From the NCBI GenBank assembly GCA_020718845.1, contig DYRG01000007.1, positions 35,908 to 86,228 on the forward strand: a DNA stretch of 50,321 bases, written 5' to 3'. A program made the translations under genes and the position numbers. This document shows positions 23,900 to 27,690 of the stretch, in pieces (position 1 is the first letter of the stretch; every line of letters begins with the position of its first letter). Origin of the DNA: Thiomargarita sp. (GTDB lineage: Bacteria; Pseudomonadota; Gammaproteobacteria; Beggiatoales; Beggiatoaceae). The notes under the pieces are model-generated. The model worked only from the letters and a program-made list of their open reading frames with translations. It had not been told where the DNA came from and searched no databases.

Positions 23900-24886
23900 A
23901 TGAAATATAACCATATTATGAACAATGATTACACGCCACTGCATTTTCCAATGCAACGTTTGATTTTAAAATGTGAATCAGATCAACAACTTATTTTCAA
24001 GCAACACGAAGCACAATTACGTTTAGCGGGAGCATTTGGGCGAACGGTGTGGGAGAAATGTGCGATTGAAGCGCGGTTTTGCGAACGTCATAAAACCCAA
24101 GCCGAACCGAAATGTCAAAACGGGGTGAATTGTCTAACGCATTGGTTATACAAGCCTTTTTCGGAAATTCATCGTCGGGATTTTGCGCGACCGATTTTTT
24201 TATTTTCGCCGACTTTTGCGCAACCGCACGAACCCACACAAGCCTTTGATTTAGAAGTCACTTTATGGGGACGACACGCCATCGCCGCACAAAGCCATGT
24301 TCTTGATATTATTGAGAAAATTGGAAAAGTGGGTTTGCGATGTGAAGATAAAAACATCTCTTTTAAAGTGGTTGATTATCAAAGCGGGTTAGTGTTGACG
24401 ATCAAAGATCAGCTTGCGTATTATGTTGATTTAGAAGGAATTAAAATACATTTTTTAACGCCGTTGTGGTTTGCGAAACGCGACGGATCGGATAGTTATC
24501 GTCGGCGATATTATTCGGTGTACGAAGATGAATTGCCGCTGCGGGATATTTTGGCGAATCTGGCATACGAATGGGCGGCGTGGGACATTGAGGATCGTCA
24601 GTTGCCCGTTGATCAACCGACGCGGCATCGGCGGGCGTGTGAGTGGCGAGATGCGGCGCGGGCGGCGGCGGACGGCTTGCAAATCGTCGAGGCGGAACTC
24701 CACCAAATCGACTGGGGCGAACGTCAATCGCGGCGCAATCAGCATTGTTATCCCTTACAAGGCTTAATGGGATACGCGCAATTGGGCGGCGATTTAAAGC
24801 CCGCGTTGCCGTATTTAATCGCGTTAAGCCAAGCGGGCGGCGGGCAAAAACGCGCTCAAGGCTTCGGAGTCGTGCGTTTGTCATAG
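23900..24886 (+). CDS. cas6: CRISPR Cas6-type pre-crRNA endoribonuclease
   Basis: A 328-residue RAMP protein of the Cas6 C-terminal family. The diagnostic glycine-rich loop AGGGQKRAQGFGVVRL is at the very C-terminus. GYAQLGGDLKPALPYLIALSQ comes before it, as in family members. A Cys cluster (Cys54, Cys61, Cys72, Cys78) may bind metal or be structural. The array's repeats begin 38 bases after the stop, on the same strand. Cas6 would cut each repeat to leave an ATTGAAAC 5' handle. There is no cas1, cas2 or effector gene in the window, so it is a stand-alone processing gene here. The start could also be ATG 23918, since neither has a well-spaced ribosome site. GC-rich codons from about 24480 to 24860 differ from the AT-rich neighbours. 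Confidence 0.85.
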   Translation: MKYNHIMNNDYTPLHFPMQRLILKCESDQQLIFKQHEAQLRLAGAFGRTVWEKCAIEARFCERHKTQAEPKCQNGVNCLTHWLYKPFSEIHRRDFARPIFLFSPTFAQPHEPTQAFDLEVTLWGRHAIAAQSHVLDIIEKIGKVGLRCEDKNISFKVVDYQSGLVLTIKDQLAYYVDLEGIKIHFLTPLWFAKRDGSDSYRRRYYSVYEDELPLRDILANLAYEWAAWDIEDRQLPVDQPTRHRRACEWRDAARAAADGLQIVEAELHQIDWGERQSRRNQHCYPLQGLMGYAQLGGDLKPALPYLIALSQAGGGQKRAQGFGVVRLS

Positions 24887-25465
24887 TTGCAATTTCTTTC
24901 AAGGTGTGAAATCATAATCTCAGGTTGCAACAATATGACAGAAGAAACCCCGCCAATGCAGGCGATTGAAACACTTGAGAAAAAAAATTGAGCAATAATA
25001 CCAAAGTTGCAACCAACCGCGCCAATGCAGGCGATTGAAACCTTTTTAATATTGTTTTTATGCAATCTTAACTCTCGTTGCAACCTACCTCGCCAATGCA
25101 GGCGATTGAAACTTTTTTCATATTCGTTTGAATTACTGGAAAACAGGAAGTTGCAACCTACCTCGCCAATGCAGGCGATTGAAACATAAAGTTAATTATT
25201 AGTTTTAATGAACTTAAAAAAGTTGCAACCTACCTCGCCAATGCAGGCGATTGAAACAAAATAGAACGGCATCATTAACGTAACATTTTGACGTTGCAAC
25301 CTACCTCGCCAATGCAGGCGATTGAAACTTATAATGAGTGTTCCGACAATTGCACTAAAGAAGTTGCAACCTACCTCGCCAATGCAGGCGATTGAAACGT
25401 CCAAGCATTTGGTGGATTTTTATTACAATCCGTTGCAACCAACCGCGCCAATGCAGGCGATTGAA

Positions 25466-25614
25466 GAAATCCCCTCCTTTTAGGAGGGGACAGAGGGGTG
25501 GTAGTTAAAACAACTTTCTTCCTTTTTGAAATCATTTTTTTAAGGAAAAAAGCCAAGATTGAAATCACCACCCCCTAACCCCCTCCTTGAAAGAGGGGGA
25601 ATTGTTTTTACCCA
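25466..25614. mobile_element. MITE-like element, copy 1, in a CRISPR repeat
   Basis: About 150 bases with imperfect terminal inverted repeats of roughly 35 bases. The left end reads AATCCCCTCC...AGGGGTGGT and the right end ACCACCCCCTAACCCCCTCC...GGGGGAATT. There is no coding capacity. The left edge follows GCGATTGAA of a repeat and the right edge meets CGCCAA of another repeat, so the junctions are not a simple target-site duplication. Confidence 0.75.
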
Positions 25615-25844
25615 CGCCAACGCAGGCGATTGAAACCCTGTGGCATAAACTTCTTGAGAAGAAAAAATAGTGTTGCAACCTACCTCGCCAATGCAGGCGA
25701 TTGAAACAAATCACAATTAGTAGTTTGTTGAGAAATAGTTGTTGCAACCAACCTCGCCAATGCAGGCGATTGAAACAACAAATCATTAACATCTTTACCA
25801 TCCCATTTTTGTTGCAACCTACCTCGCCAATGCAGGCGATTGAA

Positions 25845-25994
25845 GAAATCCCCTCCTTTTAGGAGGGGACAGAGGGGTGGTAGTTAAAACAACTTTCTTC
25901 CTTTTTGAAATCATTTTCTTTAAGGAAAAAAGCCAAGATTGAAATCACCACCCCCTAACCCCCTCCTTAAAAGAGGGGGAATTGTTTTTACCCA
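25845..25994. mobile_element. MITE-like element, copy 2, in a CRISPR repeat
   Basis: It differs from copy 1 by about two substitutions and one single-base indel and has the same left and right junctions with CRISPR repeat sequence. The shared junctions favour duplication by recombination between repeats over two independent insertions. Confidence 0.75.
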
Positions 25995-26036
25995 CGCCAA
26001 TAGCTGGCGATTTGATTTAAAAATGATCCAAAATAA

Positions 26037-26073
26037 AACCTTTTAAGCCTAAGAAACTTAGAAGGTTTTTTTT
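26037..26073 (+). terminator. Intrinsic terminator after CRISPR array 1
   Basis: AACCTTTTAAG (26037-26047) pairs with CTTAGAAGGTT (26057-26067) with one G-U pair and is followed by a run of eight Ts. Confidence 0.75.
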
Positions 26074-26091
26074 GTGTGCGAATGACTTAAT

Positions 26092-26119
26092 TTGATTTGC
26101 CAGCTAAAATAGCTATAAT
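26092..26119 (+). promoter_or_regulatory. Promoter of the RelE/Phd pair, probably leaderless
   Basis: TTGATT at 26092-26097, a 16-base spacer, and TATAAT at 26114-26119. The toxin ATG is at 26126, seven bases after the -10 box, where transcription would start. No ribosome site fits. Two AGCT half-sites (26103-26113) overlap the -10 and could be an operator. Confidence 0.6.
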
Positions 26120-26125
26120 GGACTT

Positions 26126-26398
26126 ATGCTTACACTTGATATTAAACCACAACCTGCTAATTTCATTAAAGAATTGCCGTCCAAACAATGCAAACAGCTT
26201 TATGTTGCTATTTTAGAGCTTATGAAAAACCCGACCCCGCACGATTCTGCAAAACTTAAAGGATATGATAATCTTTATAGAAAGGATATCGGCGAATTTA
26301 GAATTATCTATCGTATTGATAATACTCATTTATTTGTTTCACTTGCGGGCAAACGCAACGATGATGACATTTATAAAAAATTAAGGAACTTACAATAA
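26126..26398 (+). CDS. RelE/ParE-superfamily toxin
   Basis: A 90-residue putative mRNA interferase. The family pattern is clear: FIKELPSKQCKQLYVAILELMKNP, AKLKGYDNLYRKDIGEFRIIYRID, and LFVSLAGKRNDDDIYK. The basic, aromatic core (YRKDIGEFRIIYRI) carries the residues that act on ribosome-bound mRNA in RelE relatives. Toxin comes before antitoxin and the two overlap by one base (TAATG). It sits between two CRISPR array segments. It appears intact. Confidence 0.87.
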   Translation: MLTLDIKPQPANFIKELPSKQCKQLYVAILELMKNPTPHDSAKLKGYDNLYRKDIGEFRIIYRIDNTHLFVSLAGKRNDDDIYKKLRNLQ

Positions 26399-26658
26399 TG
26401 AACGTTCAAGCAACTGAGTTAAAAACTCGTTTAGGCAAATATCTTGATGCAGCGATCAAAGAACCCGTTTTTGTTGAAAAAAATGGCAGAAATACCGCCG
26501 TGATTATTTCTTTTGAAGAATATAATCACTTGTTAGAATTAGAAGATTTTTATTGGGGAATCAAAGCCTTAGAATCCGAAAAACAACCTTCTATCGACAA
26601 CGGGTTAGAATTCTTAAATCAAGTGATCAAAGATAAAGATATTAACTTCGAAACTTAA
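26398..26658 (+). CDS. Phd/YefM-family antitoxin
   Basis: An 86-residue antitoxin. The N-terminal Phd/YefM DNA-binding fold is MNVQATELKTRLGKYLDAAIK followed by EPVFVEKNGRNTAVIISFEEY. An acidic C-terminal tail should wrap the toxin. Overlap with the toxin stop suggests translational coupling. The protein should repress its own promoter with the toxin. Confidence 0.88.
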   Translation: MNVQATELKTRLGKYLDAAIKEPVFVEKNGRNTAVIISFEEYNHLLELEDFYWGIKALESEKQPSIDNGLEFLNQVIKDKDINFET

Positions 26659-26673
26659 CCCGTGATCAAATCA

Positions 26674-26689
26674 GCGTTCATCTGTGTTG
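26674..26689. repeat. Short ACACAGAT-family repeat
   Basis: GCGTTCATCTGTGTTG, one unit of the dispersed family, lies after the antitoxin gene and before CRISPR array 2. Confidence 0.6.
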
Positions 26690-26749
26690 CAAAAATGTCA
26701 TGCAAAAAAAGGCTTGCAATACTTTGAAAGCTATGCAATTATCTCACCA

Positions 26750-26992
26750 GTTGCAACCTACCTCGCCAGTGCAGGCGATTGAAACTAATTAGCAAATTCG
26801 CATACCCTAACTCTTCTGTTGCAACCTACCTCGCCAATGCAGGCGATTGAAACTAATTAGCAAATTCGCATACCCTAACTCTTCTGTTGCAACCTACCTC
26901 GCCAATGTAGGCGATTGAAACCAAAAATAAGTAAAGTTTTTCCTTCTTTTATAAGTCCTGTTGCAACCTACCTCGCCAATGCAGGCGATTTG
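26750..26992 (+). CRISPR. CRISPR array 2 with a duplicated spacer
   Basis: Repeats are at 26750-26785, 26818-26853, 26886-26921 and a corrupted last one from 26960 ending GGCGATTTGAT. Two repeats carry single changes (AATGCAGG to AGTGCAGG, and GCAGG to GTAGG). The spacers at 26786-26817 and 26854-26885 are identical 32-mers, and the third spacer is 38 bases. Same repeat family and orientation as array 1, so Cas6 from 23900 could process both. Confidence 0.94.
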
Positions 26993-27001
26993 ATCTAAAA
27001 G

Positions 27002-27040
27002 AAAAAGCCCTTTCTCTTGAATGGAGAAAAGGCTTTTTTT
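27002..27040 (+). terminator. Intrinsic terminator after CRISPR array 2
   Basis: AAAAAGCCCTTTCTC (27002-27016) pairs with GAGAAAAGGCTTTTT (27024-27038) with one mismatch and ends in Ts. Confidence 0.75.
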
Positions 27041-27123
27041 ATGGAGAATGGGAGAAATTACAAATCAATTTCAAATAACAGATTTTCTTGGTAGATATTC
27101 CCAAAAGTTTGTTTTAGTGGCAT

Positions 27124-27690
27124 TTATGATTTTTCTTTTGTTCCTACTTCATCTTGAACCTTACGACTAAATGACGATACTTTTAAACTTCCAATGATAT
27201 GATTTGCTCTCACCACAGAAACATCGACATTTACGACCCAAAATTTAATGGTGCTTTGTTGTAAGGTTTGCAAAAAATCCATTAATTGCTGAGAGTTAGC
27301 TTCAAATTTTAAAGATTGTGTTAATAACAACCATTCGCCCGTTTCAACAAATTCTGGCAAATCAACCGACGTTAAATTAATTTTTGAATTGCTCGCATAT
27401 TCTTTTAATAAACTTTGTGCACGCGCACTTACTAATGCTCGAGTTTCTCCATTCAATAAACTGCTTTCTGTGGTTTGAACTTGTTGAGAAATTGTTTGAA
27501 AATCTTGTTGCCATTTGTTCACTTCGGCTTTTAATAAATGCAATCGGGAAATTTCGGCTTTTTGTTTTTTGATTTTGTCAAGGATTTGATTACCTTCTTT
27601 CCAAATAAAGGGCGCGGCTTCAAATGGAATCACATACCCAAAAAATAGGATTCCCGCTAACCATAATGATTTCTGTTCTTTTTTAGTCAT
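27124..27690 (-). CDS. gspM: Type II secretion GspM-like inner membrane protein
   Basis: A 188-residue protein. A short cytoplasmic start is followed by one membrane helix (about residues 9-27) and a coiled coil (ILDKIKKQKAEISRLHLLKAEV). A ferredoxin-like periplasmic domain of the GspM/PilO type ends it (QSLKFEANSQQLMDFLQTLQQ, FWVVNVDVSV). It starts four bases after the gspL-like stop, so the two form a platform pair as in type II secretion. MshJ of MSHA pili has the same fold, so assignment between the two systems is open. Confidence 0.75.
   Translation of the reverse strand: MTKKEQKSLWLAGILFFGYVIPFEAAPFIWKEGNQILDKIKKQKAEISRLHLLKAEVNKWQQDFQTISQQVQTTESSLLNGETRALVSARAQSLLKEYASNSKINLTSVDLPEFVETGEWLLLTQSLKFEANSQQLMDFLQTLQQSTIKFWVVNVDVSVVRANHIIGSLKVSSFSRKVQDEVGTKEKS

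Follow-up and report, generated by a model that had tools for sequence, protein, structure and literature searches.

Introduction

MITE and IS insertions in CRISPR arrays are already documented in Haloquadratum, Microcystis, Thermoanaerobacter and Xanthomonas. In Haloquadratum walsbyi HBSQ001, the available excerpt describes the MITE HqIRS37 within a residual CRISPR, in a strain without Cas genes (PMC3119063). The consulted part of another study counts 59 CRISPRs with transposon insertions and describes in Microcystis aeruginosa NIES-843 a CRISPR repeat carrying a 180-bp MITE, with a 5-bp duplication, as well as IS110/MITE insertions in Thermoanaerobacter CRISPRs, with several IS110 copies (PMC4852346). 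In Xanthomonas citri pv. citri, according to the excerpt at hand, an IS21-family element is inserted in a CRISPR repeat in four strains and another in a spacer of a fifth (PMC6889575). Such insertions are considered very rare in Sulfolobales in the accessible portion of a review, which cites one 132-bp MITE in euryarchaeal loci (PMC4390879). As for Thiomargarita, MITEs are described as widespread in its genome; the excerpts of that paper mention CRISPR among repeat motifs and name no MITE in an array (PMC4853749). No case of a MITE inside an array was found in the excerpts of PMC3718332 and PMC3839810.

The window considered here (i.e., the whole stretch of 50,321 nucleotides, contig C85:35908-86228) contains two copies of a short non-coding element in one CRISPR array. 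As in the accessible description of HqIRS37, a MITE-like sequence is found in a remnant array; however, HqIRS37 is there a single copy inside a spacer, whereas here two copies have the same junctions at repeat edges and cas6 is kept. The Microcystis and Thermoanaerobacter cases, as excerpted, are similar in that short or multiple mobile elements occupy CRISPRs, but the Microcystis MITE shows a 5-bp duplication while 20 nt of the CRISPR repeat itself are duplicated at copy 1. The Xanthomonas case shares the insertion in a repeat; it concerns an IS element instead of a short non-coding one, and the excerpt notes no doubling in one array. The event is of an ordinary kind with a neat duplicated geometry, and what the earlier note presents as a rare view of an invaded array has these published precedents.

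Results

Organization of the locus and state of the CRISPR system

The window belongs to a draft genome of 2.98 Mb in 123 contigs, given as 99.97% complete. The gene cas6, encoding the CRISPR endoribonuclease, is located at 23900..24886 (+ strand, scanned from 23915) and is recognised by PF10040 (E=3.7e-6) and PADLOC Cas6 (E=3.1e-17), the match to TIGR01877 (NCBIfam) being below cut-off. It is the only cas gene recognised adjoining array 1, which lies directly downstream on the same strand (24937..26018) and comprises 13 repeats or remnants. Ten of the intervals between them hold ordinary spacers (33-37 nt); the element fills the two others, which measure 135 and 136 nt when counted by repeat frame. 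The array 1 repeat, GTTGCAACCTACCTCGCCAATGCAGGCGATTGAAAC, is also matched in G037 of the same family (contig C69, 6969-6991) and in Candidatus Thiomargarita nelsonii JSZA02000036.1 (6972-6991). The first repeat is irregular (GTTGCAAC...GACAGAAGAAACCCCGCCAATGC, 24930-24972), and the leader-like stretch of the other arrays has no match ahead of it. At the other end, a hairpin-plus-T stretch comes after the terminal repeat and is almost identical to the trailer of a mini-array on contig C41; array 2 and the C41 and C73 mini-arrays are likewise closed by the trailer motif GATTTGAT(T/C)TAAAA.

Array 2 (26750..26995, + strand) has four repeats and three spacers and contains no element. Its first two spacers are identical and in tandem (26786-26885), which has the look of a repeat-mediated duplication in this genome. 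The leader-like stretch ahead of it (26678..26749, + strand) is common to the orphan mini-arrays on C73 (L008, 96%) and C41 (L004, 89%). Each of these consists of two repeats and one spacer, and they share with array 2 about 75 bp of leader-like sequence and similar trailers. On contig C110 (L065), a 40-bp leader piece lies about 850 bp from a solo degenerate repeat with hairpin-plus-T, with a 201-aa ORF in between. Between arrays 1 and 2 lies a toxin-antitoxin pair (26126-26658), whose ParE-like toxin matches PF05016 below cut-off and whose antitoxin is of the Phd/YefM kind.

The Rfam scan of 24000-27500 gave RsaE as sole match (27003-27074; 28.6 bits, cut-off 79), which was regarded as a chance hit. 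Terminator-like matches in 24600-27100 amount to 12 vs. a shuffle mean of 3.6: four are in the element copies (two per strand) and five of the remaining eight involve repeat sequence, by reading. Promoter-like matches in the same interval are at chance level (5 vs. 5.1).

Neither Cas1 nor RAMP is matched in the own genome, the same searches being positive in 9 and 4 of 14 control genomes, respectively. Cas3-core gives four matches, none over the cut-off (controls: 14/14 matched, 6/14 over cut-off). On the basis of these three families, adaptation and interference genes of a functional CRISPR-Cas system are not recognised over cut-off, and array 1 appears as a relic keeping cas6. There would therefore be little selection to remove an insert.

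Element copies and their junctions

Copy 1 (25466..25614, 149 nt) and copy 2 (25845..25994, 150 nt), both on the + strand, were delimited by alignment and genome searches. They align with 148 identities, one mismatch and one one-base gap, in agreement with the two nearly identical copies of about 150 bases previously noticed. When the 12 inter-repeat intervals of array 1 are aligned pairwise (local alignment), the element-holding pair is the only one with a score of at least 28 (254). The presence of two near-identical copies in array 1 is thus confirmed beyond chance. As the copies differ at two places, the duplication is not fresh.

The repeat on the left of copy 1 (R8, 25432..25465, + strand) lacks its last two bases (AC), as does the repeat on the left of copy 2 (R12, 25811..25844, + strand). 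R8 has its own 5' variant and R12 the standard 5' part; they differ at two places (CAACCAACCGCG vs. CAACCTACCTCG), while the 3' part of R8 equals R12. On the right of copy 1, R9 (25615..25636, + strand) lacks its first 14 bases and is then an internal-type repeat with one change, its stem and ATTGAAAC end being intact in sequence. On the right of copy 2 lies the degenerate remnant of the terminal (trailer) repeat, CGCCAATAGCTGGCGATTTGATTT (25995..26018, + strand).

The left junction reads ...GGCGATTGAA|GAAATCCCC in both copies, the element side beginning with GAAATC, and the right junction ...TTTTTACCCA|CGCCAA. The identical junctions of the earlier note are accordingly valid for the element edges, i.e., after ...GCGATTGAA and at CGCCAA, and not for the repeats around them, given the two differences on the left and the degenerate terminal repeat on the right of copy 2. 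To the right of CGCCAA the shared sequence switches to internal-type in R9 and to terminal-type in the terminal repeat. Copy 1 is framed on both sides by the same 20-nt repeat segment, with one difference, and copy 2 by internal-type repeat on the left and terminal-type on the right.

Two explanations can be judged on these data. A draft of 123 contigs might contain one copy duplicated by the assembler. But a substitution and an indel distinguish the copies, the repeats around them are not the same either, the three spacers in between occur nowhere else in array 1, and the contig extends past them in both directions; an assembly artefact is therefore highly improbable. An oversized «spacer» integrated by Cas1-Cas2 would explain that the element fills one spacer position between repeats. 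Integration by Cas1-Cas2, however, copies a whole repeat, and here the flanking repeats are incomplete, the length is 135-136 nt vs. 33-37 nt, Cas1 has no match in the genome and the element has none at E≤1e-5 in the phage and plasmid collections. The left junction is not matched in the phage collection either. Spacer acquisition of the Cas1 type was rejected on the length, the incomplete repeats and the missing Cas1, and we give it hardly any credit.

Structure of the element and consequences for the pre-crRNA

The element ends are imperfect inverted repeats of about 33 nt, each of which is also a hairpin. In copy 1 the left one is at 25470..25502 (+ strand; end-to-end alignment and fold) and the right one at 25567..25601 (+ strand), the latter with an inner hairpin (25579-25599) plus AATTGTTTTT. 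This right-hand hairpin followed by AATTGTTTTT has a terminator-like score in both copies. The ends are separated by no more than about 65 bp of AT-rich filler. Copy 1 is overlapped by four ORFs (38-78 aa), all of which run out into the array; none is contained in the element.

With respect to MITEs, the element is short (149-150 nt), non-coding and ended by inverted repeats. No short target-site duplication is seen at either copy, the flanks being CRISPR repeat sequence, and the full-length copies are two, both in array 1; dispersed full-length relatives are seen only in another genome, G003. As to an autonomous parent, similar hairpins flank DUF559 genes in relatives, this family having no match here or in G003. 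REPINs are mobilised by RAYT transposases, and their two inverted palindromic units form one long hairpin. The element has the same inverted palindromic pair forming a long hairpin; the partner of REPINs is a RAYT, whereas the gene found beside some relatives of the element is DUF559.

The RNA fold of copy 1 (−56.1 kcal/mol) is stronger than all 200 shuffles (z −4.0), and copy 2 folded as single-stranded DNA gives z −3.37. The qualification as MITE-like, with a strong hairpin in the pre-crRNA, is thus supported. When the flanking repeats are included, the two repeats of copy 1 base-pair across the element in both the minimum-energy and the centroid folds. For copy 2, both repeat hairpins are retained at minimum energy, but in the centroid the repeats pair with each other. 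The repeat stems around the element may thus misfold, as these models suggest.

Cas6 of this kind presumably cuts at the 3' base of the repeat stem, leaving the 8-nt ATTGAAAC handle. At sequence level, R8, R9 and R12 retain both the stem and this presumed cut side, and the terminal repeat has them in an altered form. Damage to the Cas6 sites, which had been anticipated, is hence uncertain: stem and cut side are kept in the four flanking repeats, but three of the four predicted folds pair repeats together. Since stem and cut side are present, the damage would likely be a useless giant crRNA and not erased Cas6 sites. Early termination or misfolding of the pre-crRNA at the element is possible.

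Distribution of the element and its relatives

A list of all genome copies had been proposed as a check of the earlier note. In searches that scored 40 of 64 and 40 of 59 initial candidates, the genome of 2.98 Mb gives the two full-length copies of array 1 and no other; the next-best piece is a 38-bp end piece at 89% identity, the others being shorter. A 32-base interior pattern (≤3 mismatches) is found at two places in the genome, i.e., the two copies. At least 18 other repeats of the array 1 type in this genome are without element.

In the family, the element is matched in 7 of 42 genomes at E≤1e-5, the own genome included. G003 has 25 matches, with full-length relatives at about 69-73% identity. 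Class-wide, with at most two candidates scored per genome among the matches listed, so that weaker or further matches may be missed, 2 of 369 genomes are matched at E≤1e-9, one of them being the own genome. In the second (G083, L093), the match is one lone hairpin end in an intergenic position, without a CRISPR-like run.

The 28 loci of relatives in other genomes (L066-L093) correspond to best matches, at most 30 being taken per search, and some of them overlap. Exact 22-mers at CRISPR-like spacing were looked for, with three true CRISPR loci as control (runs of 7, 4 and 4). There is no run in 25 of the 28 loci; L068, L071 and L083 have runs of 4, 2 and 2, respectively, and all three were rejected as CRISPR. 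The run in L068 comes from the hairpin itself, repeated in tandem every 52 bp; that in L071 is a pair 54 bp apart about 1 kb off the match, and that in L083 one stretch repeated once, 80 bp on. The tandem array of L068 (1297-1556, G039) contains the hairpin unit in four register copies. By reading, none of the 28 loci seems to lie inside a CRISPR array.

The G003 MITEs have a core about 72% identical to the element, with the same paired hairpin ends. They differ in that five of the seven full-length copies examined have the core embedded in a larger element, which is bounded by outer inverted repeats (ACTGCCATTAAGTTAAG) and flanked by 11-12 bp duplications, on four different targets; the other two are without this outer repeat. 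The motif ACTGCCATTAAGTTAAG has no match in the window at ≤3 mismatches. Two copies, L080 and L084, on different contigs, share the near-palindromic target ATGCGCCGCAT.

The outer repeats and duplications in G003 indicate that a related family has transposed there, and could therefore speak for two independent ordinary MITE insertions without target preference in array 1. Against it, register and orientation are the same twice within one array of 1.1 kb, no full-length copy was scored elsewhere in the genome and neither copy has an ordinary short target duplication. By arithmetic, given two hits in the array and a period of about 71 bp, two random insertions would share register and orientation in about 1 case in 142, which is unlikely. 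Independent insertions are as a whole barely conceivable.

DUF559 genes and paired hairpins

In G020, related hairpins bracket ORFs identified as DUF559 by family search. DUF559 (PF04480) is matched in 26 of the 42 family genomes and has no match in the own genome or in G003. Among 13 strong matches (E≤9.2e-30), 12 were tested, L120 being dropped as it starts at a contig end. The inverted repeats between the flanks of DUF559 beat all 40 shuffles in 10 of the 12 loci, to be compared with 4 of 65 shifted control positions; with 50 shuffles the same 10 loci are positive. The 12 loci are not independent, four coming from G020 and two from G040. L115 and L118 do not beat the shuffles, and L114 does so by a thin margin (27 vs. 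25). In L113 the inverted repeat around DUF559 is of other sequence, and in L067 the best inverted pair is outside the nearest hairpins.

The plain hairpin pattern (≤4 mismatches) gives a pair in two and a single match in one of ten loci (L112-L119, L138 and L139); it also flanks the DUF559 gene in L086 and L067. Hairpin-bracketed DUF559 genes are seen in L112, L138, L086, L067 (G020), L116, L117, L119, L139 and others. These pairs are inverted GC-rich hairpins followed by a G-run and can be aligned to the right end of the element, with scores of 42-59 in 7 of 9 loci and of 28 and 20 in the others (values without shuffle control). The difference is that they enclose a gene, whereas the element of the window contains filler alone.

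The association of DUF559 with hairpins thus appears, from sequence, to hold in some genera; as regards mobilisation by DUF559, what is observed is an association. DUF559 as necessary partner is disfavoured, because G003 has full-length relatives and no DUF559 match. A literature search at the level of paper listings returned no description of DUF559 associated with inverted hairpin pairs. One could imagine that DUF559 endonucleases and paired hairpins form their own kind of mobile or homing element using palindromic DNA, of which the element of the window would be a non-autonomous form, site-specifically inserted twice in CRISPR repeats; we regard this as very unlikely.

Origin of the two copies

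The most probable explanation, in which we have good though not full confidence, is a single old insertion beside a repeat, then copied by repeat-repeat recombination in the relic array. This is one of the two possibilities of the earlier note, and it is consistent with the junctions, with the confinement of the element to one locus and with the lack of a partner gene. The element would be a non-coding relative of a MITE/REPIN-like hairpin-pair family found elsewhere in this bacterial family. It would have entered array 1 once, in the place of a spacer and at the expense of the adjoining repeat edges. An unequal crossover between the repeat on the right of the element and R8 would then duplicate in tandem the block made of three spacers and the element; the first three-spacer set would be lost in a second crossover, this time of R8 with R12. 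The predicted outcome is S7-R8-element-R9-three spacers-R12-element-terminal repeat, where R9 would be a hybrid that combines an element-side 5' part with an internal-type 3' part, and R8 would retain its own 5' variant. The repeat sequences agree with this route, which was reconstructed on paper; there are other, equivalent routes.

Several observations support copying: (i) the shared stretch starts and stops inside repeats, where repeat-repeat crossovers would place its ends; (ii) R8 joins its own 5' variant to a 3' part like that of R12, as expected of a repeat-repeat hybrid; (iii) array 2 has one spacer twice in tandem; (iv) DUF559, flanked by such hairpins in relatives, is not matched here. 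In group B Streptococcus, single-spacer duplications within carriers are described in the excerpt consulted, one of them of a distant spacer (PMC5641575). On the other side, the simplest crossover route takes two steps, and an intermediate has left no trace in the form of a duplicated ordinary spacer in array 1.

Identical junctions would also be produced by site-specific insertion into repeats, i.e., by an element that integrates twice into the CRISPR-repeat palindrome, perhaps via a circle carrying the CGCCAA...GCGATTGAA segment. In that case the excised circle would have ACCCACGCCAA joined to GCGATTGAAGAAATC. The 20-nt segment framing copy 1 goes in this direction, as does the internal-type left and terminal-type right of copy 2, which a crossover within the segment would give; moreover, in the accessible part of PMC4852346 several IS110 copies split the CRISPRs of Thermoanaerobacter. 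But recombination of a segment already holding the element gives the same junctions, the other repeats of the type (at least 18) are empty, the related loci appear by reading to be outside CRISPR arrays, five of seven relatives have target duplications, on four different targets, and no partner gene was found here. Targeting of the repeat palindrome, the other possibility of the earlier note, is consequently unlikely. More generally, as repeat crossovers may copy an insert, one should be wary of taking repeated junctions as a sign of target specificity.

Within the favoured explanation, i.e., one insertion followed by copying, the order of events, the crossovers and the present immobility of the element are all inferred. 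The immobility here is a guess, because mobilisation by DUF559 is an association and G003 has full-length relatives without DUF559.

Discussion

The case documents a relic array still carrying cas6. It suggests that an insert in a CRISPR array could be copied like a spacer, by repeat crossovers and without transposase. The association of DUF559 genes with inverted hairpin pairs, a by-product of this analysis, is more interesting than the duplicated insert itself.
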